NCBI RefSeq assembly: GCF_030253575.1
Contig: NC_080559.1
Location: forward strand, 33,227,501 to 33,291,500
Length of the DNA: 64,000 nt
From: Rhododendron vialii
Lineage: Eukaryota > Streptophyta > Magnoliopsida > Ericales > Ericaceae
Direction: 5' to 3'
Shown: positions 1,305 to 59,800 of the stretch, piece by piece
How the letters are laid out: each line of letters starts with the position of its first letter
How positions within the stretch are numbered: position 1 is the stretch's first letter
Made by a program: the position numbers and the translations under genes
Notes under the pieces: model-generated
Told to the model about the DNA's origin: nothing
Databases searched by the model: none
The model's input: only the letters and a program-made list of their open reading frames with translations

Positions 1305-1406
1305 AAATTAATTTAATAAGGAATGAGCTGATGGCTCACATAGCAGATATTAAACTATTAAGAACAAATACTACACTTGATCTTAGCCAAAAGGCCGAGA
1401 AAGTTT
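1305..1406 (-). ncRNA. U2 snRNA locus 1, 5' half only
   Basis: Read on the minus strand this matches the first ~100 nt of U2 snRNA. Stem-loop I is present with the canonical GGCCTTTTGGCTAAGATC, followed by the branch-site pairing segment GTGTAGTA. It is the only copy in the window that keeps the canonical GGCTAAG. The 3' half with the Sm site, stem-loops III and IV, and the 3' box is missing because the sequence joins the GCGCC spacer near 1304. Changes in stem IIa (TTAATAG paired against CTGCT) and at the 5' end (AAAC instead of ATACC) also argue against function. U2 pairs with the intron branch site in the spliceosome. This copy is a truncated pseudogene. Confidence 0.85.
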
Positions 1407-1430
1407 GTCTTCTCTTCTCTTGGGCTGCCT

Positions 1431-1482
1431 ATTTTATAGTCAAGTAATCCCTCCTCTTTTCTATGCTTAGTCATTGTTGGAA
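1431..1482 (-). promoter_or_regulatory. U2 locus 1 promoter, USE decayed
   Basis: The TATA box (minus strand TATAAAAT, 1431-1438) is intact about 30 bp upstream of the U2 start. The upstream sequence element position (1471-1482) reads TTCCAACAATGA and no longer fits the plant consensus RTCCCACATCG. Confidence 0.7.
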
Positions 1483-2413
1483 ACAAACCCCAAAGTAACA
1501 AACCGGGTTTTTCTACTTTTGCACATATTCTGCTTGGTTTGTGCCTTCAGTTCGACTCGGTTGTTTGAAGCCTCTGAGCACCTAGTGAGTCCTTGTGTCC
1601 ACCAATTACATTGTAACTTCTTAATCTATTGAGTATCCGATTGCTTGGGATAAAAAAAAAAGATACCCCTCTAAATTAGCCCTCTAAATTGCCCTATAAT
1701 GAGTTCAATACGCAACTGTGTATAGCTTAGATTGTGATTGAGTTGGTTCTAGCTTCAGGAAGTCATTGCTACCCCTGGAGTTCCCTTTGTTACACTTTTT
1801 AGCCCTGTAATTCCTCTCTTCTTTCTGTTTTGGTTTGGACCTTGTGTTGTACATGGCATTTTTTTTGGTTGACTCTCAAGGGTATCCAATATCCCCTTGG
1901 TCCAAGTTTTTTAGTTTGTTTTTTTCTCAATGAAAAGCAACTTACCAAACAAACTTGTACTAAAGCTCATTGAGTGGACTCATGTAGTGCGTCGATGATC
2001 AAAACCAAACACTCACACACGAATTGAGAGAAAACTTAACTATTATTGGATCAAATGCAATAACATTACAAAAAAAAAAGAAAAAAAGAGATTCTCTAGA
2101 GGAGCACTCCTTTGAGCTCGATCCCCTTTGGTTATCTCTCACCCTCACCGTAAATCTCGCCTTGGGTAAATCCTTATGATGAAACGGTTTTTAATTATTT
2201 AATGAAGTATGGAGAGCCCAATGAACCTTGTGGACACTCTTACAGAATGACCGAGTACCATAGAACTAGGGATGTGTGTGTCGAACGGAACTTAAAATGT
2301 GTAAATGGGCGTGAAAACGAACTTTAGCCATTGTCGCTCCAATGATCTTTGAATTGGTCTCCCTTCGACCAACTTTTCAAAAATAAAATTTTATTATTTT
2401 AATTGGTCGTTTC

Positions 2414-3033
2414 CATGATCTTTTAATACAGTTAAAACCTTATTTATCATTATATAATTGGTCTTAATCTGATTTAAAATAAAAAGGATACTAGCGTTTT
2501 ATTGAAAGAATTTGTTTTTCGACCAATTGAGGGTAAAATGGTCATGTGTTTTGAAGCAAAAAATATATTTCATTGGAACCAATTTGGTAGGAAATTAGAT
2601 TGGACAAGCCTTCTAACGGTTTAATCCACGACCAAATTGGAGTTCGGGAGTGTCTGAGGTAAGTCCGCAAAGTTGGACTTGTTTGCAATGTTCAGGATGC
2701 GCCCGGGGCGCATTGTAATGCGCCTGGGCGTAAAGGAGTGCGCCTGAGGCGCAATTTTTGCTGCATAACATGTTAAACTTTGCGGACTTACCTTGGACAC
2801 TCCAGAACTCCAATTTTTGCGTGGTTTGAACCGTTAGAAAGCTTGTCAAATTTACTTTCTAGCCCAAGTAGTTTGGATAAAAAATCATTTGTATATCTAA
2901 TGAAGTTACCATTTTACCCTCAATGGGTCAAAATATGATTCGTTCTGGCAAAACACGTTTTTGTTTCTCATTTTAAATTGGATCAAGATCCATTGTATAT
3001 CAATAAATAGTGTTTTTAAATTACTAAAAGATG
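2414..3033. repeat. Long inverted repeat, copy 1
   Basis: Two arms of roughly 280-300 bp are complementary. The left arm begins CATGATCTTTTAATAC and the right arm ends TTACTAAAAGATG. The inner ~80 bp are close to perfect, with GGACAAGC and TCTAACGGTT on both arms; the outer parts have drifted. The loop near 2690-2760 holds GCGCCCGGGGCGC- and GCGCCTGAGGCGC-like palindromes. There is no coding capacity. A transcript would fold into a long hairpin. Confidence 0.8.
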
Positions 3034-3899
3034 ACGGGATCCCACCATAAATGGGGGTTGAACATATAGTTTCACTTTCCCCACATTGAACCAAGCGATA
3101 TTCTTGTTTGCGATTGGTATTTTTTTTGGAAGCATCAATCTGAACGATACATTGTTTGGCAACAACTATAAATTTGTTGTGAATCAGAATGATGGATTTC
3201 TATGTAAAATGTTGGTGCATTGGTATGCCACTTGGCTATTTTATGAAAAACGGAATGTCTATTTCAGTAGTTAGTTACATCAAAGAAGAAAAACGTATTG
3301 AATGCTCCCAAGGCGCAATTAATATGCGCCTGAGGCGCATTTCAGAATGGGAAAAAAATAGGAAGTGCCCAGGGAGCAATTCAATTGCGCCTGAGACAAA
3401 TTACAAAAAAGAACAAATTCTGGGTGCACCCAGCCAGCCGTGGCTTAAATGTGCCTTACGAAAAGAGTGCAAATTATTCAGGATGCAAGCCCTTGGTGCA
3501 TTTCAAATACGCCCGAGACGCATGTGATTAATTTTTTTTTTGACTGGTTCGTTTTAGTCCCGGTTGGTTGAGACTATAAAAGGCCAGCCTCTAAACATTA
3601 ATTAGTGTAGGATTTTTCAAGCAAAAGAGATGCACAAGAAGCCAGTGCGAAGGGTTTCCAAGAGTTCCATCCATGAAGATTTCATTGAACATAGACTTAT
3701 GGTGTTAGATATTTGCCCTTGAACTAGATGGTGGCATCTTTCTTGTTGTTCCTATTTCGGCTCCCGCGTTTACAAAATCTTGATTCTGTCCTTGTTGGTA
3801 CCCGTATGCAAACAAAAAGATTCAAACTTGTCTTGTTTTCTTGCTTTGTCAAAATGAATTACAAACATGGGAAGAAGAGAACTTTAATCGATGAAATAT

Positions 3900-4766: not shown

Positions 4767-5521
4767 TTTGTAAGGTTTGAAGTGTGTTGTGTGGACTGCT
4801 GGCTTAGGAGCACAGCAGGCTCTGTTCCCTCGAAATAGGTTTCATTTTGAAATCTGAAAATTTAAATCCAAACTGTTTATATAGGAAATCATGAGAGAAA
4901 ATAAGATGCGCCCGGGGCACATTACAAGAATAGAGAAAATGTGGATGCGCCTGGGGCGCTTTTGATGCAGTAAATATTCTTGATTTGTGTTTTACTGAGC
5001 TTTTCTAGTCCGAATTGGTAGGAGACTAAAAAAAGGCAATTCTTTAAAAATTATAAGGATTGTTAAAGCATAAGAGAGGCACAAGAAGCCCGAACGAAGT
5101 GATTCCAAGAGTTGTCCAAGCATAAGAGAGGCACAAGAAGCCAATATATATAGGAAGGGATTCCAAGAGTTCCATCCATGAAGATGTGGACTTATTGAAC
5201 AACTTGGATCGATCTCCAACTGAAAGTAACCGAATTACTTCACCAAGGATCTCATATACTAGATTGTAAAATTACAAATTGAGAGTGTGAGGATTGAGTG
5301 CGCAAGTACAGTGTAAGAATTGAGAGCGGGAGCGTAAGACATTAATTTGAAGGAGTTAATTAAAACTAGATCAACTGATTGATGATCCGCTTTAATAGGG
5401 AAAGAGACTAACCCTGTAATTAAACAGAGAAAGAGAAAATACTAGTACTTCTCAATTACACAGATCTGCATATATCAAGCCAACTAATTTGGTAGCAGAA
5501 ACATTTGAACTTGGTTTGGTT

Positions 5522-5724
5522 GGGGTGCGCCAAGCCAAGGCTATTTGCAACACTAAGGCAACCCATTAGAGGCCACAGTAGCAAGCTACTGTAGTGGGCC
5601 CTCCCCACAAAAAATTATTAATTTAATAAAGAGTGAATCAATGGCTCACATATCACATATCAGATATTAAACTAATAAGAATAGACACTACACTTGATCT
5701 TTGCCAAAAGGCCGAGAAAGGAAT
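5522..5724 (-). ncRNA. U2 snRNA locus 2, near full length
   Basis: On the minus strand the locus runs from ATTCCTTTCTCGGCC to GGCGCACCCC, with an Sm-type site AATTTTTTG and stem-loops III and IV recognisable. It is 203 nt against the usual ~196. The extra bases include a local duplication of CATAT in the stem II region. The branch-pairing segment reads GTAGTG instead of the invariant GTAGTA, and stem-loop I has GGCAAAG instead of GGCTAAG. A plant-type 3' box, CAAACCAAGTTCAA, follows the end (5505-5518). The promoter is intact. It is probably a decayed gene: the branch-pairing change would weaken its core role. A transcribed variant cannot be excluded. Confidence 0.85.
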
Positions 5725-5748: not shown

Positions 5749-5800
5749 ATTTTATAGTCAAGTTTTCTCTCCTCGTTTTTCTGCTTAGTTGATGTGGGAA
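5749..5800 (-). promoter_or_regulatory. U2 locus 2 promoter, USE and TATA
   Basis: USE TTCCCACATCA (5790-5800) and TATAAAAT (5749-5756) are centred about 43 bp apart, four helical turns. In plants this spacing specifies RNA polymerase II rather than III. Confidence 0.85.
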
Positions 5801-8712: not shown

Positions 8713-9541
8713 CCTATTGATCAATCCATGGGTTTGTTTCTGGAAATCAATCACACCTTCAAATTCTTGAAATCTATGAGCCATTGGATGTTATATGTAG
8801 GAATGAAATTACATCAACAGAAAAAACTCAATGCTCCCAACGTGCAGTGGAAATTCGGTTGAGGCGTCCTACAGAATGAGAGAAAATAGAAAATGCCCGA
8901 GGCGTGATTCAATTGCACCTGAGGCACATTACAAAAGGATAGAAAATGTGAATGCACCTGGGCACAACTTAAATGCGCCTGAGGCATATGTGAAGCAGCA
9001 AATATTTTTAAATTGTTTTTTTAATTGAGGTTTTCTAGTCTGAATTGGAACAAGACTAAAAAAAGGCAATCCTTCAAGCTTTATAACGATTTTTAAACAT
9101 AAGAGAGGCACAAGAAGCCCGTACGAAGTGACTCCAAGGGTTGTTCGAGCATAAAAGAGGCACAAGAAGCGAGTATAGGAAGGGATTCCAAGAGTTCCAT
9201 CCATGAAGATGTGGACTTATTGAACAAATTGGATCGATCTCCAACCGAATTACTTCACCAAGGATCTCCTATAGTAGATTGTAAAATTTCGAATTAAGAG
9301 TGCGAGGATTGAGTGCGCAAGTACAGTTTAAGAATTGAGAGAGGGAGCGTAAGACATTAATTTGAAGGAGTTAAAACTAGATCAGCTGATTGATGATCCG
9401 CTTAGTAGGGCAAGAGACTAACCTGTAATTAAACAGTCAACATAATACTAGTACTTCTCAATTACACAAATCTGCATATGTCAAGCTAACTAATTTGGTT
9501 CTAGACCCGAAGTAGCTGAAACATTTGAACTTGGTTTGGTT

Positions 9542-9737
9542 GGGGTGCGCTAAGCCAAGGCAATAGTGCAACACCAATGCAACGTATTAGAGGCCGTAGT
9601 AACAAGCTACTGTAGTGGGCCCTCCCCTCAAAAAATATTAATTTAATAAAGAGTGAACCGATGGCCCACATATCAGATATTAAACTAATAAGAGCAGATA
9701 CTACACTTGATCTTTGCCTGAAGGCCGAGAAAGGTAT
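9542..9737 (-). ncRNA. U2 snRNA locus 3, full length 196 nt
   Basis: The minus strand runs ATACCTTTCTCGGCC to GCGCACCCC, exactly the usual plant length of about 196 nt. The branch-pairing segment GTGTAGTATCTG is canonical, the Sm-type site ATTTTTTG is present, and a 3' box CAAACCAAGTTCAA follows (9525-9538). The deviations are GGCAAAG for GGCTAAG in stem-loop I, a changed tetraloop (TTCA) and TTATTAG for TTATCAG, which leaves a G-U pair in stem IIa. The upstream USE has drifted. It is structurally complete but probably weak or silent. Confidence 0.88.
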
Positions 9738-13029: not shown

Positions 13030-13793
13030 GCCTAATGATGAATGCATGGGTTTGTTTCTGGAAATCTATTGCACCTTCAAATTCTTGAAATCTATGAGCC
13101 ACTGGATGTTATATGTAGCAATGAAATTACATCAACAGAAAAAACTGAATGCTCCCAACGTGCAGTTGAAATTCGCTTGAGGCGCCCTATAGAATGAGAG
13201 AAAATAGTATGCGCCCGAGGCACATTACAAAAGGATAGAAAATGTGAATGTGCCCGGGCACAACTTAAATGTGCCTGAGGCACATGTGAAGCGGCAAATA
13301 TTTTTCATTTGTTTTTTTAACTGAGTTTGTCTAGTCTGAATTGGAGCTAGACTGAAAAAAGGTAATCCTTCAAACATTATAACAATTTTTCAAAGCATAA
13401 GAGAGGCACAAGAAGCCAGTATGAAGTGACTCCAAGGGTTGTTCGAGCATAAGAGAGGCACAAGAAGCCAGTATAGGAATGGATTCCAAGAGTTCCATCC
13501 ATGAAGATGTGGACTTATTGAACAACTTGGATCGATCTCCAACCGAATTACTTCACCAAGGATCTTATATAGTAGATTGTAAAATTATGAATTGAGAGTG
13601 CGAGGATTGAGTGCACAAGTACAGTGTTGAGAGCAGGAGGATTGATGATCCTCTTAATAGGGAAAGAGATAACCCTACAATTAAACAGTCGACAAACTAC
13701 TAGTACTTCTCAATTAAAGAGATCTGCATATGTCAAGCCAACTAATTTGGTTTTAGACCTGAAGTAGCAGAAACATTTGGACTTTGTTTGGTT

Positions 13794-13950
13794 GGGGTGC
13801 GCCAAGCCAAGGCAATAGTGCCACACCAAGGCAAAGCATTATAGGCTCCTGCAGCTACTATAGTGGGCCCTCTCCTCAAAAAATTATTAACTTAATAAAA
13901 GTAAACCGATGGCCCACATATCAAATATTAAACTAATAAGAACATATACT
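13794..13950 (-). ncRNA. U2 snRNA locus 4, 3' part, split by LTR element
   Basis: The minus strand gives the U2 3' part: GGCGCACCCC end, stem-loops III and IV, Sm-type site and stem II. It stops inside the branch-pairing region, where the LTR element begins. The remaining 5' part is at 38139-38173. The split point is the duplicated ATACT, which on the minus strand lies in GTAGTAT. Confidence 0.88.
13946..13950. repeat. Target site duplication ATACT, left
   Basis: Identical to 38134-38138. It directly abuts TGTGGGCAC, the start of the LTR. Confidence 0.95.
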
Positions 13951-15935
13951 TGTGGGCACGCGCCCCCGGAAATTTTATTCGTAAAATTGGGCGCGGCCCT
14001 TTTTGTTGGAAGAGCGCGGCGAAACGCCTCGATTCGGAGTCGCCACTCGGGTTTTAGCGGTAGGAGCACCCAAGGAACCGAACTCGAAAAACGTTTGCCA
14101 CGTTTGTTTGATTTTGAAAAGGCATAGACCGGTCCGTCGTCACCTTCGATATCTGAGGTTCGGGAGCCATGTTACGAGAGGGGAAGGGTTTTATGGCACC
14201 CCTCTCGCCCAATCCGGAGATCGGTCTCTACTCGGGCGTTTTATAAAACATTTGCATTTTTCTCTCATTTGATCATTTTTTAGCCAGTTAGGGCGGGGGA
14301 ACAGTTAATGGGGGGTTAAAACTTTAACAAGTTGCAATTAGGCGACAAAATGTTTATGGATGATTTTGATTGCAATGCTAAACATAGATTGAGAACAAGT
14401 ACTGAGTAGCTTGAATAAACTGAAGTACGCTGCCCTGAAGGAACGTAAGCAGGTTCCGTCAGCATGCACTGGCCGAGCCACTGCATGCTGATTGTACATG
14501 CGCACGCCACCTCATAACTGGCGTACTCCACTTGTTAAGCTTCACAGTCCCTATTTGCAATCCTCTGGGCTCTGGAAAGGGACCAGCGCACACCCAGGAC
14601 AAACCATGCAGTTAAATAAGCAGGATATATACATTTACAGACAGATGAGATGGCTTGAAGCCATGAAAATAGACAGGAAACCCCCTAAACAATGTGGGGA
14701 CAGAAAGGAGGCCAGGATTGAACTAAGATGCAAAGGGCCAGCCACTGGATCCTAGCTTTAACTGCCGTACGCCAGTCATGGACTGTCGTACGCACGTTGG
14801 ACCCTAATCCAGTGCTTGGCTTTTGCATCATCTGGGCTCTGGAGCATGACCAGAAGGATCCCAGGGGCCTTTTGAGCAGATAAGAAGCGAGTATTAACTA
14901 CTACATCTAAACAGTTCTAAATATACAGAAAGCGGTAAACTGGTTATTTAGCATGCAAGGGTGACTGACAGAAAGATAACATAAGAGGAATGACGATCCA
15001 TGATCCCCACGCCAGTAGTGCTCGTTCTACCATGACTGGCGTACGGCATATGGTTACTGGCGTGCGCCATGTATCACCTCATACGTTTGTCGTATTTTGC
15101 CAGTTTGAGGCCAGGACTAGTATTACTTACTAGCCTGGGCCTCACTGGTTCCCCTCAGGGGCCAAAAACAGAAAGGGACACAAAGGTGGTATACCTTTTT
15201 GTTTGAGGATTGAAGGTGGTATTGAACTTTAAAGCTTGGAGATGGAAGCTTAGATGGTGGCTGGATGTCAGCAGGGTGTGTGGAAGTGGGCTGTTTTCTT
15301 TTCTCTTTCAATGGAAGAAAAAGGGATAGAGAGCAAGAAAGGAGGAAGGAGAGAGCTTCTACTTCTTAATGAGGCCAACCCCTTGCAAATGAATGCAAGG
15401 GGGGTATTTATAGGGGGGGAAGACTGAGATCAGTTAGGTGCTAAGGCCTGTTTGGCTGGCTAAGGCAAGGTTGGAGCCTCCCATGCATTAAATGCATGGG
15501 ACTTGCCTTGATGGGGGGTGTAGGAGAGAGAGGGAACGTCTCTGCAGAAAGTAATCATCAGGGACGCTGTAGCCGACGTCAGGGTGGCACAAAAGTCCCG
15601 CCCAAGTTGCTGAATAAAGTTGATTTGACTGGGTTTGACTGGCGTGCGCCACTTGTAAATGGCGTGCGCCAGTAAAAGCTAAGCCACTGGTCGATGACTG
15701 ACACGTGGCAGATAACTGGCGTACGCCTCCAGGACACTGGCGTATGCCAATTGGGTTTTGCTGGGGCTGTTTGGCTCTGGTTTGAAGGGTTTTGAAAGGT
15801 GTTTGAGAGAGGTTCGGGACGCTCAAAGCTCGACCACACCTTTGTCCTTAAACTGTTTTCGACTAAAATCATCATTGGGGAAATATAAGATCGACAAATA
15901 ACGTTATCTGGACAGTCCAGAATGGGGTGTCTACA
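13951..15935 (-). repeat. 3' LTR (left), 1985 bp
   Basis: In element orientation it starts TGTAGACACCCC and ends GCGTGCCCACA. It carries TATAAATA (15405-15412, minus strand) as a likely core promoter and several GGCGTACGCC-like palindromes. It has no protein-like frame. Confidence 0.95.
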
Positions 15936-15948
15936 GAAGCCCCCCTTT
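15936..15948 (-). other. Polypurine tract
   Basis: The minus strand reads AAAGGGGGGCTTC directly before the 3' LTR, the expected place and composition for the plus-strand primer. Confidence 0.8.
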
Positions 15949-16187
15949 GACGGCACTTGACGCACCATTGACTGAAGACAAGTAACGTCAAAGGTTTTCT
16001 AGACACCCTCTTCAAGGCTATCCAGAATGCAAGAAATTTGAAGAACCTGTTTGATTCGACGCTGGGGCGGATAGACCGCCGCTTTGCTGTTTTTGATAGA
16101 CAGATCACAGAAATGTGGACTCTCCTGGGGAATGATCCCCCTTTTTTAGAAGCACCGATTCTGTTGGGGACAGCAGATTGTGGGACG

Positions 16188-16640
16188 GATAGATCGTCGT
16201 TGATTTGAAATTGGACGAGAAGATCGTCGTTGATTTGAAATTGGACGGATAGATCGTCGTTGATTTGAGATTAGACGAGTGGATCGTCGTTGATTTGAAA
16301 TTGGACGGATAGATCGTCGTTGATTTGAAATCGGACGGATAGATCGTCGTTGATTTGAAATTGGACGGATAGATCGTCATTGATTTGAAGTTGGACGGAT
16401 AGATCGTCGTTGATTTGAGATTAGACGAGTGGATCGTCGTTGATTTGAGATTGGACGAGTGGATCGTCGTTGATTTGAAACTGGACGGATAGATCGTCGT
16501 TGATTTGAGATAGATCGAGTGGATCGTCGTTGATTTGAAATCGGACGGATAGATCGTCGTTGATTTGAGATTGGACGAGTGGATCGTCGTTGATTTGAGA
16601 TTGGACGAGTGGATCGTCGTTGATTTGAAATTGGACGGAC
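16188..16640. repeat. 30-bp minisatellite, about 15 units
   Basis: The unit is close to GATCGTCGTTGATTTGARAT plus TGGACGGATA, repeated about fifteen times with point variants such as GGACGAGTG. Because 30 is divisible by three, all six frames stay periodic and open frames of ten-residue repeats appear on the minus strand (for example FKSTTIYPSN). No start or neighbour supports these as a gene. It lies in the element's region before the 3' LTR. Confidence 0.9.
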
Positions 16641-16975
16641 TCTTGCTTGGGGATGGGCCCAAAACTTCTCAGAATAAGTTGGGCTTTCACTTGAGGACGA
16701 ATTTTCAGTATTGGATATGGATTGGGCCTGAGGCCCAAAAATTACTGGCGTACGGTACACTTAATTGTCGTACGCCATCTATCACAGAGATCCGAGCCCA
16801 GACCCGAGTCCAGACCCGGCCCAAACGTCCCATACGTCGTATAAACTTCTGAGGCGGTGCAGAAACCGCTCTTCTCTGGTTTTGAACTCTGGAAACTGTC
16901 AAGCCTTCTCGAAATCCTTCAATCTCTTCCTCACTCTCCCATTTTTCGCAAAAATCCATACCTCTTCACCCATCT

Positions 16976-19900
16976 ATGGCGGAACCCAATGGTGGTGGCG
17001 GCAATGGCAATGCCGGCGAGGAGGGGAATCGGCCACGGGGTAGTGTCGAGACTCCGGAGTCTCGAATCGACGATCAAGCTACTGCCGAACCTTCATCGAG
17101 TGTCAGTGTAGCGGCCGCAGGCGGCGGCGGCGACAGTGGTGGCCATGCAGCGGCGGTGGCCGGTGGCGATGAGGGGCGTACGCCAGGAGGGATACGGCGT
17201 ACGCCAGGCTCTGTTGTGATAGTGGGTCCACAGGTTCGTCGACTGGATCCAAGCAGTGGGGTAGAGGGTGTGGTGATTACCGGTTTGGACTCGACTGGAG
17301 CCGGCGGCAGCGGCAGGGGCAGTGGTGATGATGGTGGCCGACCGGGGACGCCACCGAGGGATCCGGCGAGGGGCAAAGGTCCCGTGGTTGAGGAGGGAGC
17401 GTCCGGGGCAGTCCCCACGGAGGAGGTGGAGTTTCGGCCAGCAGTGGGGTCTTCGGCACACGTACCCATCACTCAGGGAGATTTTGCTGAGTTTGTGTCC
17501 GAGGAGGAACTCGGCCGGTTGCTCCGTGAGAACCCGGGGGTAGTGGCTGCAGTGCTGGCAGCACGAGAGGATAGGGCCCGGCAAGTGGAGAGAGCGCAGG
17601 AGGAGGAGCGCTTGAGGGAGGAGGCCGAGAGGGCCAGGGCCGATGAGGAAGCCTTTGTGAGCGAGACTGAGATAGCTGAGGAGGCTCAGGGGGAGGTGTG
17701 GTCGTTTGAGCGAGCAGTGACGCTCGCAGAGTCCGCCCGGCTGGCACCCCGCCGTCATTTTGACGCGGCTACGTACGCTCCGCCCGAGCCACACCTGTTT
17801 ATACCGTCCGGGGTCGAGAGCCTCGCGCCTTTGAGGGGGAGTTATGACGCCGAGCTGATACTGAGGGACCCGCAGAGGCACTTGTCAGTGGACTGGGCAC
17901 AGGTGTTCCTTTTGAACTTTTTCCTTTGATATGCATGTCTTATCATTTGAATCCAAAGGTAGTTTTGAACTGTTGTAGCGTAGCTCGTAATGCATGTAGA
18001 TTGGAACCTCGATTGTAACCTGACTGAGAAAATGGAACCTCGAATAATATGCCTCGACGCAGAAACTCGACTTGAATGGTAGAACAATCGAAGTAGTTGA
18101 ATCGACTTGCAGGATGCCCCATGACTTTGAGGAAATGGTTAGCGCCAAACTAGAATTGACCATAAGTGGCTTCGATCAATAAGGCTATCCTTTGAACTTG
18201 ACTTCGACTAAGTAGATTGCCATGACATGACGGACGCCCGGATGGCGTGCCCAATAGCTTGATTCGACCATATTGCCATACCGAAAACTCGCGTAATCGA
18301 CTGAGAGATGTACCTTGAGAAAAGAGAGGCCCAGTGGCTCGGAACTCGACTAAGAAACACCCTTGAATTGATTCGACTGATAGCAGAGCTGGATAGGAGA
18401 ATACAAGTGCCTAGTAGCTTTTGTTCGACCTTTATGATACCTGTTTCGACTGTAGAGTTACTCTTTGATATTCTGAATTCGACTAACTGTTTGGATTGCA
18501 ATTCATTGATGAAGTTCTTTCTGCTGTCTGTCTGTCTTTGTTGTGCAGAGGGGGGCGGCCAGCACTCGGGGCCACGGAGGTCCGGCGAGTTCGCTTGAGC
18601 TGTACAGGAGCTTGCCTGAGCGTGTCAGGGCCTTGATTGACGCCGCAGGGTTCCGGCCGTTTATCCTCACGTTGACGGCCGTGAAGAGCGACCACGCTCT
18701 GCTGACAGCGCTGGCCGAGAGGTGGTGGGATTCCTCAAATACCTTCCACTTGCCGATTGGGGAGATGACAGTGACCCCGTCCGACTTCGCAGCGCTCACA
18801 GGCTTGAGGGTAGGTGGAGAGCCTATCTCGTTTGACTCAGAGATTTACAGGGATCCGGCGGCTCTGACGTGGTTTCTAGGGCAGGCGCCGGCGGGTGAGG
18901 CGGAGACCGTCCATTATGACCAGTTCAAACGGTATTTGCACGGGAGGGAGCCGGAGTCAGAGTTGGAGGCGGAGCAGATGGCGAGGGCCTACCTGTTGTA
19001 CTTGTTCGGGGCTACCCTGTACCCGAACAAGCGATCCACAGTGCACCTGTCCTACTTACCGGCCCTCCATGACTTAGGCGCAGCTTCGAGGTTTTGACTG
19101 GGGAGGAGCTGCCCTGGGCACCTGCTATGGCTTTATGGGGGCGTTCTCTCGCGGGAAGAAGGCGACTGCCGGCTACTGGAGGGTGTGGGAGGTAAGAAAC
19201 AAAGACTATCATTTACTTACCGCTTTTCCCTTTATTGCATTTGTACTTTGATTTGCATATGAACTGTATCCTGACGCCTTGGTTGTCTTTACCATTTGCA
19301 GCTATGGGCTTATGAGGTGCTGAAGATGTACCCTCCGGAGAACAAGTGCCCGAACCTGAGGATGCTCCCCCGTGCCATGATTTGGGGTCCTATGTACAGC
19401 GGGAAAAAGAAGTCCAGAGGGAGCCTCCTAGCTTTCCGGACCTACCTCGACGAGCTGTCTGGCACTCAGGTATGCAATTATGTCGAATTTGATCATTATA
19501 CCCGTAGAATTGCTTTAATGCTGTCGCTGATACCTTACAAACTGTGCCATTGCCTTGCAGGTGGATTGGAACCCTTGGAGCGGCGCTGAGCCTGAGCCTG
19601 AGTACCTGGCGGAGAGTAGGGTGGTGACTGCGAGCCGGGTGCTTTTGGAGTCGGCCTTCGGGTGGCGGTGGTACCTGGGTGACCGGGTGACACGGCAGTC
19701 ACTAGGCGCTCTTGACTTTCAGGTGCCGGGGCCACTTCCTCCTCACGCTTCCCACACGGACAAGTATACCCTGGCTGAGCTGAGGCGCTTCACTGTTCCG
19801 ACCGGGCTGGCTGCTTTTCTGAGGCCTGAGCGTGACTACGCCGTATACCGGAGGCAGCACCTGGCGAGGCCGCTCGGCGTGCTGGAGCATGTCGCCGTGC

Positions 19901-23223: not shown

Positions 23224-23874
23224 GGCCTTAGAGCCCTTCAGGCTGAGATGCCGGGTTTTTCAACAGGGCTAAAGAGCCGCTACAGACAGTGGCTGAGAGC
23301 AGATGTGCATGCAAGGGAAAATATTGACTGACTCCGGGCCACTCTGCTATGCTTAGAATAAACTGCGAGCCGTTAGGCTTCTTAAGCATTTTGTTCTGTT
23401 TTTCATGCTTCAACTGTTTTTAAGGCTTTTGTGCTCAGCTTATATATTAGAAATAGTAATTTGCAATAAAGTTGAAAGACAACAGGTTTCCCCCTTTCTG
23501 ACTCGCTTCGGTGCAGCCTTTGACTTGTGCTCGATCCCCTCGAACTGCGCTATTGACCCAAAAGTGTCGAACCTGGATCGAAATTTTGATAGAGTGTGAC
23601 CGAATCTCAAGGTGAGATTGCCTACGTATCCCTTTTTCAGGGAATCAGGTCAGAACGTAGTTCAGGCTAAGGTTCACTCGTGTATTTTACCTCTCCTTTT
23701 ACGCTCTAACTTTTGCCTAGTACCGCCTTTGCAGGTTTTCGGTCTAGCGAGCTTTCGACTTTTGCCTATTTATTTTTGCCTAGAACCGCCTCCTTAGGTT
23801 TTCGGTCTAGCAGGCTGCTCTAACTTTTGCTTGGAATCGCCCACCCTTGTGGTTTTCGACCCAACGAGCATCTC
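23224..23874. other. Spacer after integrase, with ~50-60-bp triplication
   Basis: Non-coding. Three diverged units of TTTGCCTAG-ACCGCC-GGTTTTCGGTCTAGC lie at about 23713, 23775 and 23826. The convergent ends of the second antisense gene and of pol lie on either side. Confidence 0.65.
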
Positions 23875-34728: not shown

Positions 34729-34733
34729 TGCGG

Positions 34734-36147: not shown

Positions 36148-36148
36148 C

Positions 36149-38138: not shown

Positions 38139-38173
38139 ACACTGGATCTTTGCTAGAAGGCCGAGAGAAGTAT
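38139..38173 (-). ncRNA. U2 snRNA locus 4, 5' part
   Basis: The minus strand runs ATACTTCTCTCGGCC to GATCCAGTGT and meets the LTR element. Even before insertion it carried stem-loop I changes (TTCTAGCAAAG), so it had already diverged. Its promoter is still present. Confidence 0.85.
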
Positions 38174-38197: not shown

Positions 38198-38249
38198 ATT
38201 TTATAGTCAAGTTTTTTCTCCTCATTTTTCTGCGTAGTTGATGTGGGAA
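38198..38249 (-). promoter_or_regulatory. U2 locus 4 promoter, USE and TATA
   Basis: TATAAAAT (38198-38205) and TTCCCACATC (38240-38249) with the standard spacing. Any transcript starting here would run into the 5' LTR of the retroelement in the element's own sense direction. Confidence 0.82.
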
Positions 38250-46950: not shown

Positions 46951-47817
46951 CCTAATGATCAATCCATGGGTTTGATTCTAGAAATCAATCACACCTTCAA
47001 ATTCTTCAAATCTATGAGCCATTGGATGTTATATGTAGGAATGAAATTACATCAACAGAAAAAAACTGAATGCTCCCAACGTGCAGTTGAAATTCGCTTG
47101 CGAAGCCCTACAAAATGAGAGAAAATAGAATGCACCCGGGGCATGATTCAATAGCGCCTGAGGCACATTAAAAAAGGATAGAAAATGTGAATGCGCCCGG
47201 GAACAAAGTAAATGCGTCTGAGGCACGTGCAATGCAGCAAATATTTTTAATTTGTTTTTTTAACTAAGTTTTTCTAGTCCGAATTGGAGCGAGACTAAAA
47301 GATGGCAATCCTTCAAATATTATAACGATTTTTAAATCATAAGAGAGGCACAAGAAGCCCATACGAAGTGACTCCAAGGGTTGTTCGAGCATAAGAGTGC
47401 TCATTGAGTGGACTCGTGTAGCGTGCTGAGCATCAAAATCAAACACTCACACACGAATTGGGAGAAAACTTAACTATTATTGGATCACACACAATAACAT
47501 TACAAAAAAAAAAAAAAAGACTCTCCAAAGGAGCACTCCTTTGAGCTCGACTCCCTCTGGTTATCTCTCACCCTCACCACAAATCTCGCCTAGGGTGAAT
47601 CCTGATGATGAAATGGTTTTTGATTATTCAATGAAGTGTGGAGAGCCCAATGAACGATTACCACAGAACTAGGGATATGTGCGTCAAACGGAACTTAGAA
47701 TATGTAAATGGGCGTGAAAACGAACTTTAGCCTTTGTTTCTCCAATAATCTTTGAATCGGTCTCCCTTCGACTGACTTTTCAGAAATAAAATTTAATTAT
47801 GTTAATTGGTTGTTTCT

Positions 47818-48416
47818 ATTATTTTTTAATACGGTTACAACCTTATTTATCATTATATAATTGGTCTTAATCCAATATAAAATAAAAACAATACGAGCGT
47901 TCTATTGAAAGAATTTTTTTTTCGACCAATTGAGGGTAAAAATGTCATGTATTTTGATGTAAATTTTTTTTTTCATTGGAACCAATTTGGTAGGTAATTA
48001 GATTGGACAAGCCTTCTAACGGTTCAATCCACGAGCAAATTGAAGTTCGGGAGTGTCTGGGGCAAGTCCGCAAAGTTGGACTTGTTTGCAATGTTCATGA
48101 TGCGCCTGGGCGCAAAGGAGTGCGCCTGAGGCGCATTGTAATGCTGCATAACATGTTAAACTTTGAGGACTTGCCCCGGACACTCCCTAACTCTAATTTT
48201 CGCGTGGTTTGAACAGTTTGAAAGCTTGTCCGATTTACTTTCCAGCCAAAGTAGTTTGGATAAAAAATCATTTGTATATCTAATGAAGCGACCATTTTAC
48301 CCTCAATGGGTCAAAATATAATTCGTTCTGGCAAAACGCATGTATGTTTCTTATTTTAAATTGGATCAAGACCCATTATATATCAATAAATAGTGTTTTT
48401 AAAGTACTAAATGATG
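47818..48416. repeat. Long inverted repeat, copy 4
   Basis: Both arms are present. The loop is about 20 bp shorter than in copy 3, having lost one of the GCGC palindromes. Confidence 0.75.
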
Positions 48417-49232
48417 GCGTGATCCAACGATAAATGGGAGTTGAACATATAGTTTCTCTTTCCCCACATTGAAACAAGCGATATTCTTGCTTGCGATTGG
48501 TAAATTTTTTTGGAAGCATCAATCTGAATGATACATTGTTTGCCAACAACTATAAATGTGTTTTGAATCAGAATGATGGATTTCTATTTGAAATGTTGGT
48601 GCATTGGTATGCCTCTTGGCTGTTTTATGAAAAACTGAATGTCTATTTCAGTAGTTCATTACATCAAAAAAGAAAAACGCACTGAATGCTCCCAAGGCGC
48701 AATTCATATGCGCCTAAGGCGCATTATTGAAAGGGAAATTATAGGATGTGCCCAGGGAACAATTCAAATGCACCTGAGACACATTACAAAAAAGAAGAAA
48801 TTTTGGTTACGCCCAGCCGGAGGCCCGACTAAAATGTGCCTTACGAAAATTGTGCAAATTAATCAGGATGCACTCCCTTGGCAATATTCATATACGCCCG
48901 AGGCGCATGTGACGCAAATTATTTTTTACTGGTTCGTTTTAGTCTTGGTTGGCTGGAGACTATAAAGGGCCAGCCTTTCAACGTTAATTTAGTGTAAGGA
49001 TTTTTCAAGCAAAAGAGACGCAGAAGAAGCCAGTGCAAAGGGTTTCCAAGAGTTCCATCCTTGAACATTTCATTGAACAAATTAAATTGATCTCCAATCA
49101 AATCGCTTCACTGAGAATTTCATATGGAACGTAAAATTACTCATCATCAAGTTCTTTCTCTTCAATGGCGTCATTCTTTGTTGGTTATGCTTAGAAAATC
49201 AGTTAACTAGCTAAAAGGCCTATTCCATTAAA

Positions 49233-49993
49233 ATGCAAGTTGACAATACCTTGATTTCTTGGTACATTTCAAGACAGGATATTGTGGAAGTGGACAATTG
49301 TTTTAACAAACTGCAAGGTGAAGTAAGGCCTAGCAGTGGGACATTGACCTTGGGTATCTCACCTTTTGGGAAGAATGTTAATCTTTTCCAAGGCAAAATG
49401 TCTGATTTTGCTATTGAAAATGGGACGTCATCACAGTGTTGTCCAAACTTCATTGTTGGATTTTTTTGCAAATTAAAGTTTGGGGAGATGGAGAATAGCA
49501 TTACTTGCAGTGCTATTATATCAGGTCTTATTGATGGAGAGCTGTTATAATACGACCATGCCCTAGGTTTTGAAGCCTGCAATTTTGTCGTTAAATAGCA
49601 GAAGAAGGAATGGAGCCGAATAGTATGACCTTCTTGAGCTTATTATCTGCTTGTAGCCACTCTGGCCATCTAGGTGAAGGCTGTAGAGTCATTTATGCCA
49701 TGAAATGGAGATTCGGAATGGGAAGCTGAACGAGGATTTGTTGGGCAATGGGCATTTAGTAAGATTCTGAAACTAGTGACTTTTCCATATGGTAGGATTT
49801 TGGGAGCGCTATTGGCTGCCTGTAGAGTTCATGGGAACCTAAAAATGAGGGGAATATGTAGCAAAATGGCTCTTATATTTGGAACGTAAAAATGGTGGCT
49901 AGCTATTACACTCAGTAAAGTTCAAGCTGTTGCTGAGAGGTGAGATCGAGTTGAAGAAGTACGGAGAGTAGCCGAAGTGGAGCTGCGTTGAAG
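49233..49993 (+). pseudogene. PPR protein fragment 5, broken
   Basis: The first 105 codons are open (MQVDNTLISWYISRQDIVEV onward), then frame is lost. A gap near 49740 removes part of the segment before the E motif. Confidence 0.7.
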
Positions 49994-50915
49994 CCTAATG
50001 ATCAATCCATGGGTTTGATTCTAGAAATCAATCACACCTTCAAATTCTTCAAATCTATGAGCCACTGGATGTTATATGTAGGAATGAAATTATATCAACA
50101 GAAAAAAACTGAATGCTCCCAACGTGCAGTTGAAATTCGCTTGCGAAGCCCTACAAAATGAGAGAAAATAGAATGCGCCCGGGGCATGATTCAATTTTGC
50201 CTGAGGCACATTAAAAAAGGATAGAAAATGTGAATGCGCCCGAGCACAACTTAAATGCGTCTGAGGCACATGCGATGCAGCAAATATTTTTAATTTGTTT
50301 TTTTAACTGAGTTTTTCTAGTCCGAATTGGAGCGAGACTAAAAGGAGGCAATCCTTCAAACATTATAACAATTTTTAAACCATAAGAGAGGCACAAGAAG
50401 CCCATACAAAGTGACTCCAAGGGTTGTTCTCGCATAAGAGTGCTCATTGAGTGGACTCGTGTAGCGTGTCGAGGATCAAAATCAAACACTCGCACATGAA
50501 TTGGGAGAAAACTTAACTATTATTGGATCATACGTAATAACATTACAAAAAAAAGACTCTCCATAGAAGCACTCCTTTGAGCTTGACTCCGTCTGGTTAT
50601 CTCCCTCCCTCACCACAAATCTCGCCTAGGGTGAATCCTGGTGATGAAACGGTTTTTGATTATTTAATGAAGTGTGGAGAGCCCAATGAACGAGTACCGT
50701 AGAACTAGGGATATGTGCATCAAACGGAACTTAGAATGTGTAAATGGGTGTGAAAACGAAATTTAGCCTTTATTGCTCCAATGATCTTTGAATCAGTCTC
50801 CCTTCGAGAAAATACTAGTACTGGTACTTCTCAATTACATAGATCTGCAAATGTCAAAGCCAACTAATTTGGTTCTAGACCCGAAGGAGCAGAAACATTT
50901 GAACTTGATTTGGTT

Positions 50916-51100
50916 GGGGTGCGCCAAGCCAAGGCAATAGTGCAACACCAAGCCAATGCATTAGAGGCCGCAGTAGCAAGCTACTGTAGTGGGCCCTCCC
51001 CTCAAAAAATTATGAATTTAATAAATAGTGAACCGATAGCCCACATATCAGATATTAAACTACTAAGAACCGATACTACACTTGATCTTTGCCAAAAGGC
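50916..51100 (-). ncRNA. U2 snRNA locus 5, 5' end deleted
   Basis: The 3' half is complete (GGCGCACCCC end, Sm-type site) and the branch-pairing GTGTAGTA is canonical. The first ~12 nt (ATACCTTTCTCG) are missing, so stem-loop I cannot form. GGCAAAG replaces GGCTAAG. Pseudogene. Confidence 0.85.
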
Positions 51101-51126
51101 TTGTCTTCTTTTCTCTTAGGCTGCCT

Positions 51127-54411: not shown

Positions 54412-55249
54412 CCTAATGATCAATCCATGGGTTTGTTCCTGGAAATCAATCGCACCTTCAAATTCTTGAAATCTATAAGCCACTGGATGTTGTACATAGG
54501 AATGAAATTACATCAACAGAAAAAAAAAAAAAATGAATGCTCCCAACTGCAGTTGAAATTCGCTCGAGGCGCCCTACAGAATGAGAGAAAATAGAATGCG
54601 CCCGGGGTGCGATTCAATTGCGCCTGAGGCACATTACAAAAGGATAGAAAATGTGAAAGCGCCCAGGCGCAACTTAAATACGCCTGAGGCACATGTGATG
54701 TTGCAAATATTTTTAATTTGTTTTTTAAACTGAGTTTTTCTAGTCCAAATTGGAGCGAGACTAAAAAAAGGCGATCCTTCAAACATTATAATGATTTTTA
54801 AAGCATAAGAGAGGCACAAGAAGCCTGTACGAAGTGACTCCAAGGGTTATTCAAGCATAAGAGAGGCACAAGAGGCCAGTATAGGAAGGGATTCCAAGAG
54901 TTCCATCCATGAAGATGTGGACTTATTGAACAACTTGGATCGATCTCCAACCGAATCACTTCACCAAGGATCTCATATAGTAGATTGTAAAATTACGAAT
55001 TGAGAGTGCGAGGATTGAGTGCGCAAGTACATTGTAAGAATTGAGAGCGGGAGCTTAAGACATTAATTTGAAGGAGTTAAAAACTAGAGCTGATTGATGA
55101 TCCGCTTAACAAGGAAAGAGACTAACCCTGTTGTAATTTAACAGTCGACAAAATACTAGTACTTCTCAATTATACAGATCCGCATATGTCAAGCCAACTA
55201 ATTTGGTTCCAAACCCGAAGTAGCAGAAATATTTGAACTTGGTTGGGTT

Positions 55250-55446
55250 GGGGTACGCCAAGCCAAGGCAATAATGCAACAGCAAGGCAACACATTAGAG
55301 GCCCCAGTACCAAGCTACTGTAGTGGGCCCTCTCCTCAAAAAATTATTAATTTAATAAAGAGTTAACCGACGGCCCACATATCAGATATTAAACTAATAA
55401 GAACAGATACTACACTTGATCTTTGCCAGAAGGCCGAGAAAGGTAT
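55250..55446 (-). ncRNA. U2 snRNA locus 6, the best preserved
   Basis: The minus strand runs ATACCTTTCTCGGCC to GGCGTACCCC, 197 nt. The 5' end, branch-pairing GTGTAGTATCTGTTC, Sm-type site AATTTTTTGAG and stem-loops are in place, and promoter USE and TATA are both intact. Deviations are GGCAAAG for GGCTAAG (the U6-pairing triplet), TTCT for TTTT in loop I, TTATTAG for TTATCAG (still pairs by G-U), and one base in the 3' end. U2 snRNA pairs with the branch site and U6 in the spliceosome. This is the copy most likely to be transcribed. Whether its product could work with the altered triplet is doubtful. Confidence 0.88.
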
Positions 55447-55470
55447 GTCTTCTCTTCTCTTGGGCTGCCT

Positions 55471-55522
55471 ATTTTATAGTCAAGTTTTCTCTCCTCGTTT
55501 TTCTGCTTAGTTGATGTGGGAA
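55471..55522 (-). promoter_or_regulatory. U2 locus 6 promoter, intact
   Basis: TATAAAAT lies 25-32 bp upstream of the first U2 base and TTCCCACATC (55513-55522) lies four helical turns above it. Both match the plant Pol II snRNA promoter. Confidence 0.88.
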
Positions 55523-55698: not shown

Positions 55699-55739
<41 letters not shown>

Positions 55740-55746
55740 AAAAAAA
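55694..55746. repeat. Poly-C/poly-A tract
   Basis: About thirty C followed by about seventeen A. Prone to sequencing error; the true length is uncertain. Confidence 0.9.
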
Positions 55747-56506
55747 TTATCCATTAGATATCTAAATTAGCCCTCTAAATTGCCCAACAATGAGTTCAAT
55801 ACGCAGCTCTGTATAGCTTAGAATGTGTTTGAGTTGGTTCTAGCTTCAAGAAGTCTTTGGTACCCCTGCAGTTCCCTTTGTTCTGCTTTTTAGTCTTGTT
55901 ATTCCTTTCTTCTTTATGTTTTGGTTTGGACCTTGTCTTGTACATGGCAGGGTTTTTTTTTGTTGGACTCTCAAGGGTTTCCAATATCTCCTTGGTCCTT
56001 GTTTTTTAGTTTGTTTTTTTCTCAATAAAAAGCCACTTACCAAAATAAACTTGTACTAAAGCTTTTTGAGTGGACTCATGTAGCGTGTCGAGGATCAAAA
56101 CCCAACATTCACACACGAATTGAGAGAAAACTTAACTATTACTGGATCATATGCAATAACATTACAAAAAAAAAAAAAAAGACTCTCCAAAAGAGCACTC
56201 CTTTGAGCTCGACTATCTCTGGTTATCTCTTACCCTCACCATAAATTTCGCCTTGGGTGAATCCTAATGTTGAAATGATTTTTGATTATTTAATGAATTG
56301 TGGAAAGCCCAATGAGCCTTGAGGACACTCTTACAGAATGAACGAGTACCATAGAACTAGGGATGTGTGCGTCAAACAGAACTTAGAATGTGTAAATGGG
56401 AGTGAAAACGAACTTTAGCCTTTGTCGCTCCAATGATCTTTGAATCAATCTCCCTTCGACTGACTTTTCATAAATAAAATTTCATTATTTTAATTGGATG
56501 TTTTTA

Positions 56507-57126
56507 TCATCTTTTAATACACTTAAAACCTTATTTATCATTATATAATTGGTCTTAATCCAATTTAACATAAAAACGATACTAGTGTTTTATTGAAAGA
56601 ATTTGTTTTTTGACCAACTGAGGGTAAAATGGTCATGTATTTTGATGTAAAAATTATATTTCATTGCAACCAATTAGGTAGGAAATTAGATTGGACAAGC
56701 CTTCTAACGGTTCAATCCATGACCAAATTGGAGTTCGGGAGTGTTTGGGGCAAGTCCGCAAAGTTGGAATTGTTTGCAAGGTTCAGGATGCGCCCAAAGC
56801 GCATTGTAATGCGCCTGGGCGCAATGGAGGGCGCCTGAGGCGCAATTTTGGCGCATAACATGTTAAACTTTGCGGACTTGTCCCGGGCACTCCCGAACTC
56901 CAATTTTCGCATGCTTTGAACCATTAGAAAGCTTGTCCAATTTACTTTGTAGCCCAAGTAGTTTGGATAAAAAAATCATTTGTATATCTAATGAAGTGAC
57001 CATTTTACGCTCGATGGGTCAAAATATGATTCGTTCCTTTAAAACGCGTGTATGTTTCTCATTTTAAATTGGATCAAGACCCATTATACATCAATAAATA
57101 GTGTTTTTAAAGTACTAAAACATGGC
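56507..57126. repeat. Long inverted repeat, copy 6
   Basis: Full-length arms. The inner stem matches closely and the loop palindromes have drifted (GCGCCCAAAGCGC). Confidence 0.8.
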
Positions 57127-57949
57127 GGGATCCAACCATAAATGGGAGTTGAACATATAGTTTCTCTTTCCCCACATTGGACCAACCGATATTCTTGCTT
57201 GCGATTGGTATTTTTTTTGGAAGCGTCAATCTGAATGATACATTGTTTGGCAACAACTATAAATGTGTTTTGAATCAAAATGATGGATTTTTATGTGAAG
57301 TGTTGGTGCATTGGTATGCCTCTTGGCTGTTTTATTAAAAACTGAATGTCTATTTCAGTAGTTTATTGGAGTACGTCAAAACAGAAAAACGTACTGAATG
57401 TTCCCAAGGCGCAATTCATATGCGCTTGGGGCGCATTACAGAAAGGGAAAAAATAGGATGTGCCCAGGGAGCAATTCATTTGCGCCTGAGACACAATACA
57501 AAAAGAATAAATTCTGGGTGCGCCGAGCTGGGGCACGACTTAAATGTGCCTTACGAAAAGAATGCAAATTAATCAGGATGCACGCACTTGGCGCAATTCA
57601 AATACGCCGGAGACGCATGTGATGCAATTTTTTATTGATTGGTTCATTTTAGTCCTGGTTGGCTGGAGACTATAAAAGGCCAGCCTTTAAACATTAATTA
57701 GTGTAAGGATTTTTCAACCAAAAGAGACGCACAAGAAGCCAGTGCGAGGGGTTTCCAAGAGTTTCATCCATGAAGATTTCATTAAACAACTTAAATCGAT
57801 CTCCAATGAAATCACTTCACTGAGACATTCATATAGAATGTAAAATTACTCATCATCAAATTATTTCTCATCAATGGCAGCATTCTTTGTTGGTTATGCT
57901 TTCGTTACAAGAAAATCAGTTAACTAGCTAAAGGCCTATTCAATTAAAA

Positions 57950-58703
57950 TGCAAGTTGACAATATCTTGATTTCTTGGTACATTTCATGACAGGATATTG
58001 TGGAAGTTGACAATTGTTTTAACAAACTGCAAGGTGAAGTAAGGCCTAGTAGCGGGACATTAACCATGCGTATCTCAGCTTTTGGGAAGATTGTTAATCT
58101 TTTTCAAGGCAAAATGTCTGATTTTGCTATTGAAAATGGACTTCATCACAGTGTTTTTCAAACTTTATTGTTGGATTTTTATGCAAAGTTTGGGGACATG
58201 GAGAACAACATTACTTGGAGTGCTATTATATATCAGGTCTTGTCGATGGAGAGCTGATATAATGTGACCATGGGCTAGGTTTTGAAGCCCTACAATTTTG
58301 TCGTCAAATGGTGGAGGAAGGAATGGAGTCGAACAGTATGACCTTCTTGAGCTTATTATCTGCTTGTAGCCACTCTTGCCATCTGTAGAGTCATTTATGC
58401 CATGAAATGGAGATTCGGAATGGGAAGCTCAATGAGGATTTGTTGGGCCAGTCATGGAATGGGCATTTGGTATGATTCTGAAACTAGTGACTTTTCCATG
58501 TGGTAGGATTTTGGGAGTGTTATTGGCAGCGTGTAGAGTTCATGGGAACCAAAAAATGAGGGGAATATGTAGCAAAATGGCTCTTATATTTGGAACCTAA
58601 AAATGCTGGCTAGCTACTACACTTAGTAAAGTTCAAGCTGTTGCTGAAAGGTGGGATAGAGTTGAAGAAGTACGGAGAGTAGCCAAGGTGGAGCTGCGTC
58701 GAA
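57950..58703 (+). pseudogene. PPR protein fragment 7, broken
   Basis: Its first frame has a stop at TTTCATGACAGG, then 58000-58257 is open and reads HSVFQTLLLDFYAKFGDMEN. About 20 bp are missing near 58385 relative to sisters. Its end reads GCTGCGTCGAAG where the others have GCTGCGTTGAAG, so the shared final TGA is lost. Confidence 0.7.
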
Positions 58704-59528
58704 GCCTAATGATCAATCCATGGGTTTGTTTCTTGAAATCAATCGGACCTTCAAATTCTTGAAATCTATGAGCCACTGGATGTTATATGTAGGAATGAAA
58801 TTACATCAACAGAAAAAAACTGAATGCTCCCAACGTGAAGTTGAAATTCGCTTGAGGCGTCGTACAAAATGAGCGAAAATAGAATGCGCCTGGGGCACGA
58901 TTCAATTGCCCTGAGGCATGTTACAAAAGGATAGAAAATGTGAATGCGCCCGGGCACAACTTAAATGCGCCTGAGGCACATGTGATGCAGCAAATATTTT
59001 TGATTTGTTTTTTTAACTGAGTTTTTCTAGTCCGAATTGGAGCGAGACTAAAAAAAGGCAATCCTTCAAACACTATAACGATTTTAAAGCATAAGAGAGG
59101 CTAAAAGTCTGTATAAAGTGACTCCAAGGGTTGTTCGAGCATAAGAGAGGCACAAGAAGCCAGTATAGGAAGGGATTCCAAGAGTTCCATCTATGAAGAT
59201 GTGGACTTATTGAACAACTTGGATCGATCTACAACCGAATTACTTCACCAAGGATCTCATATAGTAGATTGTAAAATTACGAATTGAGAGTGCGAGGATT
59301 GAGTGCGCAAGTACAGTGTAAGAATTGAGAGCGGGAGCCTAAGACATTAATTTGAAGGGGTTTAAACTAGATCAACTGATTGATGATTTGCCTAATAGGG
59401 AAAGAGACCCTGTTGTAATTTAACAGTCGACAAAATACTAGTACTCAATTACACAGATCTGCATATGTCAAGCCAACTAATTTGGTTCAAGATCTGAAGT
59501 AGTAGAAACATTTGAACTTTGTTTGGTT

Positions 59529-59724
59529 GGAGTGCGCCAAGCCAAGGAATAGTGCAACACCAAGGCAACACATTAGAGGCCCCAGTAGCAAGCTACTGTA
59601 GTGGGCCCACCTATCAAAAAATTATTAATTTAATAAATAGTGAACCGATGGCTAACATATCAGATATTAAACTAATAAGAACAAATACTATACTTGATCT
59701 TTGCCAAAAGGTCGAGAAAGGTAT
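59529..59724 (-). ncRNA. U2 snRNA locus 7, full length 196 nt
   Basis: The minus strand runs ATACCTTTCTCGACC to GGCGCACTCC. The promoter and Sm-type site are intact. The branch-pairing segment reads GTATAGTA instead of GTGTAGTA, stem-loop I has GACC for GGCC, and GGCAAAG replaces GGCTAAG. These changes hit the two most constrained parts of the RNA, so it is a likely pseudogene despite good promoter elements. Confidence 0.86.
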
Positions 59725-59748
59725 GTCTACTCTTCTCTTGGGCTGCCT

Positions 59749-59800
59749 ATTTTATAGTCAAGTTTTCTCTCCTCGTTTTTCTGCTTAGTTGATGTGGGAA
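59749..59800 (-). promoter_or_regulatory. U2 locus 7 promoter, intact
   Basis: TATAAAAT (59749-59756) and TTCCCACATC (59791-59800) with the same 52-bp span as all other copies. Confidence 0.86.

Follow-up and report, generated by a model that had tools for sequence, protein, structure and literature searches.

U2 snRNA genes within a tandemly repeated unit

We analysed a window of 64,000 nt from Rhododendron vialii (NC_080559.1, 33,227,501-33,291,500; all coordinates given here are window positions), in which seven copies of a U2 small nuclear RNA (snRNA) gene, here called c1 to c7 (U2 stretch of 198 bp), are part of a tandem array. Scanning of the whole window against Rfam with cmscan revealed matches to U2 (RF00004) above the gathering score of 46 bits at seven loci, all located on the minus strand and scoring 50.7-127.7 bits, and U2 was the sole Rfam family above gathering score in the window. 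This bears out the seven minus-strand U2 loci of a preliminary description of this DNA, which had named the RF00004 match as a check. The loci are listed below together with the state of their upstream sequence element (USE), TATA box and 3' box.

1273..1406, minus strand: c1, cmscan score 93.9 bits; 3' half lost, T23 kept, USE core with three mismatches, no 3' box
5520..5724, minus strand: c2, 106.9 bits; 7-nt insertion by stem IIa, USE core perfect, 3' box
9540..9737, minus strand: c3, 127.7 bits; USE core with one mismatch, 3' box
13792..13950, minus strand: 3' part of c4, 50.7 bits (match 13792-13973); cut by a long terminal repeat (LTR) element, 3' box
38139..38173, minus strand: 5' part of c4, past the LTR element; sub-threshold match 38083-38173 with 24.8 bits, perfect USE core upstream
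50914..51107, minus strand: c5, 105.1 bits; some bases missing close to the 5' end (10 nt by alignment), USE core with two mismatches, 3' box
55248..55446, minus strand: c6, among the best preserved, 118.7 bits; perfect USE core, TATA and 3' box, T18C, T23A and C51T in the U2 core
59527..59724, minus strand: c7, 126.3 bits; perfect USE core, TATA and 3' box, G34A in the GUAGUA stretch, which we take to be the branch-site pairing sequence

The Sm-like stretch ATTTTTTG is present in six of the seven copies, c1 being cut at that place. No other snRNA gene (U5 or a linked U1) was found in the unit at Rfam E values of up to 5 over positions 1-14200, 38000-51500 and 47000-64000, while for the interior of the LTR element the gathering scores served as the threshold. 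Weak matches to miRNA, sRNA, snoRNA and leader families, several of them on palindromic repeats, all remained below gathering score and were taken as chance.

A self-comparison of the window showed that all U2 loci lie within head-to-tail units of about 4.25 kb. The unit pieces (at least 150 bp, at least 80% identity) are on the same strand throughout, and the identity of pairs with at least 300 aligned positions is 0.83-0.96, mostly 0.87-0.94 (about 90%), without strong excess similarity between neighbouring units. Start-to-start offsets amount to about 4.0-4.4 kb wherever the array is unbroken, which agrees with the recurrence about every 4.3 kb described before; the recurrence is not even, as a stretch of about 12.7 kb from the split copy c4 to 50914 is devoid of any U2. 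Three units are listed here:

55731..59990, minus strand: reference unit with c7 (4,260 bp), no open reading frame (ORF) of 100 aa
51493..55691, minus strand: full neighbouring unit with c6, showing 92.6% identity with the reference unit over the aligned positions
47399..50440, minus strand: U2-less unit form (reference positions 844-3930), with an identical junction at 47398 and 50441

The coding content of the unit was checked between 51 and 60 kb, where no ORF of at least 100 aa was found, and the unit is apparently non-coding. The U2-less form misses reference positions 3931-4260 and 1-843, and two 1-kb segments spanning the junctions at 47398 and 50441 are 93.7% identical. From this identity and the shared junction we conclude that the U2-less unit has itself been copied. 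With all pieces on one strand and a U2-less unit duplicated, the array is satellite-like in that its head-to-tail units spread irrespective of the gene inside. An assembly artefact was rejected as its source because the units differ by about 10%, and retroposed U2 pseudogenes were dismissed, since the copies include promoters and several kb of flanking sequence. A U2-less unit further contains a solo-LTR-like insertion of 1001 bp (45766-46766), which starts with TGTGACGACCC, ends with GGGTCGTTACA and has TATTG on both flanks.

Promoter elements, 3' box and spacing

The plant RNA polymerase II (Pol II) snRNA promoter has been described as a USE, RTCCCACATCG, at a four-turn distance from the TATA box (PMC9845283). 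The TATA motif TATAAAATA was found in all seven copies, as noted in the preliminary description. It starts 32 nt upstream of U2 nucleotide 1 in c1, c2, c3, c6 and c7, and 27 nt upstream in c5, where the cmscan start was placed upstream to bridge the deletion. The gap between the USE 11-mer and the TATA motif is 33 bp in every copy, and both the TATA position at about -30 and the four-turn gap of a plant Pol II promoter are found in seven of seven copies. Four of them (c2, c4, c6 and c7) have a perfect USE core CCCACATC, again as previously stated, whereas the full 11-mer shows two mismatches in these four copies, three in c3 and four in c1 and c5. Recognising these loci as U2 with a Pol II snRNA promoter of the angiosperm type was right.

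5791..5798, minus strand: perfect USE core CCCACATC of c2
38240..38247, minus strand: perfect USE core CCCACATC of c4
55513..55520, minus strand: perfect USE core CCCACATC of c6
59791..59798, minus strand: perfect USE core CCCACATC of c7
55470..55478, minus strand: TATAAAATA of c6, 32 nt before U2 nucleotide 1 (position derived from that distance)

By itself, CCCACATC is not significant (four occurrences in the window versus 1.78 expected; 10 of 100 shuffles reach four), and it is meaningful only through its fixed place before U2. Similarly, the plant snRNA 3' box, reported as CA(N)3-10AGTNNAA (PMC5079582), follows directly past the U2 3' end in all copies except the truncated c1, and the motif is common by chance, occurring 69 times on one strand of the window and 100 times on the other; it is its location that counts, not its presence.

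The constant spacing between USE and TATA had been the main argument of the preliminary description. The constancy itself is real, but it is expected by chance, with indels being equally frequent in the promoter plus U2 (11 events in 1605 aligned columns, relative to the reference) and outside the gene (168 in 23505). Over seven times 52 bp about 1.3 indels would be expected, which gives a probability of about 0.27 of observing none (a rough estimate, halved for one lineage). The 52-bp spacing was therefore rejected as a significant signal and represents no evidence of function; shared descent alone would account for the exact spacing.

Divergence of the U2 copies compared with the unit

All copies were projected onto the reference unit using the pieces defined above, and substitutions were scored against the majority consensus. 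Including all copies, 77 of 1268 positions (6.1%) were substituted in the U2 body, 33 of 560 (5.9%) in the proximal promoter (80 bp) and 1236 of 26117 (4.7%) in the rest of the unit. The U2 body is thus slightly worse preserved than the rest (Fisher p = 0.037), perhaps in part because c1 was aligned past its truncation. After removal of the broken copies c1 and c4 the two were equal (46 of 965, 4.8%, versus 1116 of 24517, 4.6%; Fisher p = 0.75), with 15 of 400 positions substituted in the promoter. The divergence of the U2 stretch exceeds that of 89% of 204 overlapping 198-bp windows, and within the first 72 U2 columns the upper-case positions of the Rfam model had changed about as often (20 of 335) as the lower-case ones (11 of 157). 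Hence, these comparisons gave no sign of purifying selection on the U2 RNA body. The earlier statement that the bodies have drifted more than some promoters is weakly supported, with 6.1% versus 5.9% in all copies and 4.8% versus 3.75% without c1 and c4. Among the promoter motifs, the USE core shows more changes (six) than the 2.6 expected, and taken as a whole these motifs show no clear excess of conservation over what drift would leave, with the TATA motif alone being borderline.

The substitutions outside the gene follow a distinct order, since transitions affect 171 of 1524 CG sites (11.2%), 107 of 1246 CHG sites (8.6%), 230 of 7616 CHH sites (3.0%) and 172 of 15731 A/T sites (1.1%). The small C/G counts inside U2 are of similar order (CG 2/38, CHG 5/51, CHH 24/439). 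Methylation at CG and CHG is the pattern of plant heterochromatin, and the order of the transitions would fit such methylation.

Lesions in the conserved core of U2

As outside controls we used the hits of an exact 39-nt pattern (U2 nucleotides 26-64), which retrieved three loci on two eukaryotic contigs mis-binned into bacterial metagenome-assembled genomes (MAGs); an exact search for canonical U2 in viral contigs gave no match. One locus (L001, RF00004 score 172.1 bits) lies on the bacterial MAG contig JAOZOU010000036.1, which also contains U1, 5S rRNA and three histone 3' stem-loops, and judging from these stem-loops it is probably mis-binned animal DNA. The other two (L002 and L003) are located on CAKZGI010000061.1, a 9,838-bp contig with eukaryotic U1 and U2 genes in a Trichormus MAG. 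We take Trichormus to be the Azolla symbiont, so that this plant-like contig is probably from a fern.

The control U2s L003 and L001 share an identical 58-nt 5' core, of which 39 nt were fixed by the search pattern and 19 nt (nucleotides 7-25) agree freely. None of the seven Rhododendron copies matches this core. From c1 to c7 they differ from it at 3, 4, 5, 8, 10, 3 and 5 positions, six of the ten differences in c5 being deleted bases, and in the free part alone at 0, 1, 3, 4, 7, 2 and 2 positions, i.e. in six of the seven copies. C51T is present in all copies, and T23A in six of the seven, within the free part and at a position where both controls carry T. Position 23 of the window copies aligns to U22 in both the animal-like control and human U2, where G20-C21-U22 have been described as poised to form helix Ib with the AGC triad of U6 (PMC13332222). 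At plant position 23, which faces the U6 catalytic triad, six of seven copies thus have A in place of U. Because T23A is common to six copies and would affect the base pairing with the U6 triad, the founder of most copies was probably already impaired.

With regard to the probably-fern contig, its two ends share a 55-nt overlap within U2, and the contig may thus represent a single unit of a tandem U2-U1 array or else an assembly branch. Its U2 (L003, 1641-1761) and U1 (L002, 1691-1810) have a USE with two mismatches at -65/-66 and a TATA box at -32, i.e. a gap of 22-23 bp, which falls short of the four-turn spacing of angiosperm Pol II promoters by about one turn; the rule may differ outside angiosperms. 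In this plant-like control U2, a search of 90 nt at its end gave no 3' box.

Hairpin, retrotransposon and short repeats

Apart from U2, the unit contains a long inverted repeat, and the split in c4 is due to a retrotransposon:

56508..57142, minus strand: long inverted repeat (about 620 nt) of the unit, minimum free energy -263.1 kcal/mol, z = -18 (20 shuffles)
13951..38133, minus strand: LTR/Gypsy retrotransposon in c4 (24,183 bp), outside the U2 unit; LTRs 13951-15935 and 36149-38133, gag-pol ORF 23875-30828

The inverted repeat is present in eight unit copies (others are, for example, 60709-61343, 52226-52839 and 2399-3034) with folding energies of -219 to -273 kcal/mol, and its consensus ends are CATCTTTT...AAAAGATG. 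For comparison, 13 windows of 620 nt were scanned along the reference unit. Two of them cover most of the hairpin, and the other 11, of which two overlap it partly, gave -104 to -161 kcal/mol. Divergence in the hairpin region is 0.060-0.113 per 100-bp window, similar to that elsewhere in the unit. The matching ends of the repeat suggest a foldback transposon, and it looks like either such an element or a hairpin source of small RNAs.

The Gypsy element is young; it is flanked by a 5-bp target-site duplication (ATACT) and encodes an open gag-pol frame of 2317 aa with Pfam gag, reverse transcriptase, RNase H, RVT_3 (second RNase H-like) and integrase core domains. We take it to be of the Tat/Ogre type, which it resembles in its domain set, its length of 24 kb and its very similar LTRs; here it represents a single insertion into one U2 copy. 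Its two LTRs of 1985 bp show five differences (0.25%), whereas the units differ by about 10%, and the array is therefore probably far older than the insertion. Non-LTR elements that target U2, Utopia and Keno, have been described (PMC4640811). Such targeting was rejected for the Gypsy element, with one insertion and an ordinary 5-bp duplication. Inside the element there are tandem repeats of a 49-bp unit (14 copies, 32200-32886) and of a 30-bp unit (15 copies, 16183-16639).

Degenerate arrays of a 20-bp unit (CTTGGCCGCATCGAATTGCA and variants) are located at 39805-40181 and 11390-11840, with two opposite orientations meeting mid-array; the array at 39805-40181 forms long inverted repeats.

Discussion

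We propose that the locus is an old, gene-derived and satellite-like array, in which the U2 copies would be pseudogenes decaying in silent chromatin, and assign to this interpretation a probability of about 0.86. The seven copies most likely have no U2 function now. A working array is not indicated because the U2 bodies have diverged like the unit, the core carries lesions, CG and CHG sites have decayed and a U2-less unit was duplicated. Of the two options offered in the preliminary description, the first, that a U2 gene underwent a satellite-like expansion and is dead, is thus supported, by the neutral divergence of the bodies, the CG/CHG decay, the core lesions in all seven copies and the duplication of the U2-less unit. 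The second, a source of variant U2 RNA, would find little support beyond the surviving promoter motifs.

According to our model, a unit of about 4.25 kb with a complete U2 gene (USE, TATA, a body with Sm-like site and 3' box) was amplified in its entirety, with unequal crossing-over or a related process as the most likely mechanism. The ancestor of at least six copies probably carried T23A already, which would break the pair with the catalytic triad in U2/U6 helix Ib, so that most of the array probably goes back to a U2 gene that was already poor or dead. The copies would then have drifted apart, with no detectable selection on U2, in silent chromatin, the C-to-T pattern being suggestive of cytosine methylation. 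The array was broken further by events that are all seen in the window, namely indels, the disappearance of U2 from some units, the duplication of a U2-less unit and transposon insertions.

Several observations weigh against this interpretation. The TATA motif TATAAAATA shows no change in seven copies where drift predicts about three (P about 0.047, uncorrected, and thus borderline), the proximal promoter without c1 and c4 diverges by 3.75%, somewhat under the background of 4.6%, and c6 and c7 retain USE core, TATA and 3' box. Moreover, c1 has T23 and control-like letters at nucleotides 7-25, but it lacks the 3' half of the gene. The methylation is deduced from the C-to-T pattern, the U2 data are small (seven copies of 198 bp), so that weak constraint or one active copy is conceivable, and younger or intact copies may lie outside the window.

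One alternative, which we consider unlikely, is that Pol II still transcribes one or a few copies (c6 as the first candidate, followed by c7 or c3) into variant, Sm-binding U2 RNAs. In its favour, c6 and c7 retain the 33-bp gap along with their promoter motifs and 3' box, ATTTTTTG is retained in six of seven copies, and variant U2 genes are common in Arabidopsis, where 17 are reported as likely active and more than 92% identical (PMC545797). It is at odds with the lack of detectable constraint on the U2 body, with the unit-wide decay of the silencing type and with T23A in the catalytic helix; U2 RNAs carrying this change would be inefficient or act as a poison U2.

It is also very unlikely that the array is kept for another part of the unit, e.g. 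the hairpin of about 620 nt, which might feed small RNAs silencing the array in cis. The folding energies of its eight copies, well separated from those of 11 of the 13 comparison windows, speak for this, whereas the hairpin diverges like the rest of the unit and its matching ends rather suggest a foldback transposon. Still less credible is a recently inactivated, formerly homogenised U2 cluster with living copies elsewhere in the array. Although a U2 gene in a multi-kb unit resembles the metazoan U2 arrays such as human RNU2, the units are only about 90% alike without strong excess similarity of neighbours, and with T23A common to six copies the decay looks long-standing and not recent. A combination, in which a second U2 class with U23 changed to A would be transcribed as a decoy or for a variant spliceosome while hairpin-derived small RNAs keep the array largely silent, appears just as improbable from the sequence.

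The proposed decaying array can be compared with three known systems. Tandem U2 arrays of metazoans, such as human RNU2, are expressed and homogenised. They have in common with the Rhododendron array the head-to-tail arrangement with one U2 per unit, whereas the latter is about 90% alike and decayed; human U2 genes are described as tandemly repeated (PMC9138887). In Arabidopsis, the active U2 genes are more than 92% identical and the reported clusters are small (PMC545797). The Rhododendron copies share with them a USE (here with mismatches to the full 11-mer) at four-turn spacing from a TATA box, the position of this box about 30 bp upstream, the 3' box CA(N)3-10AGTNNAA and the Sm-like site, but differ by their multi-kb tandem array and their lesions in the conserved core. 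Finally, U2_sat of Ciona is described as a satellite derived from a U2 gene (PMC4640811). Compared by name and description only, both are tandem DNA derived from a U2 gene, the one in an animal, the other with a unit of 4.25 kb that includes promoter and 3' box. Among the listed titles and opening lines of abstracts from the open-licence PMC literature, neither a satellite derived from U2 nor a large tandem array of U2 was found for plants, which is weak evidence of absence.

The array illustrates how an entire Pol II snRNA gene, together with its promoter and 3' box, can ride passively in a large plant tandem unit and decay at about the neutral rate, yet look gene-like to motif scans. For annotation this calls for caution, since seven Rfam-positive U2 loci, most of them with recognisable promoters, probably have no U2 function.

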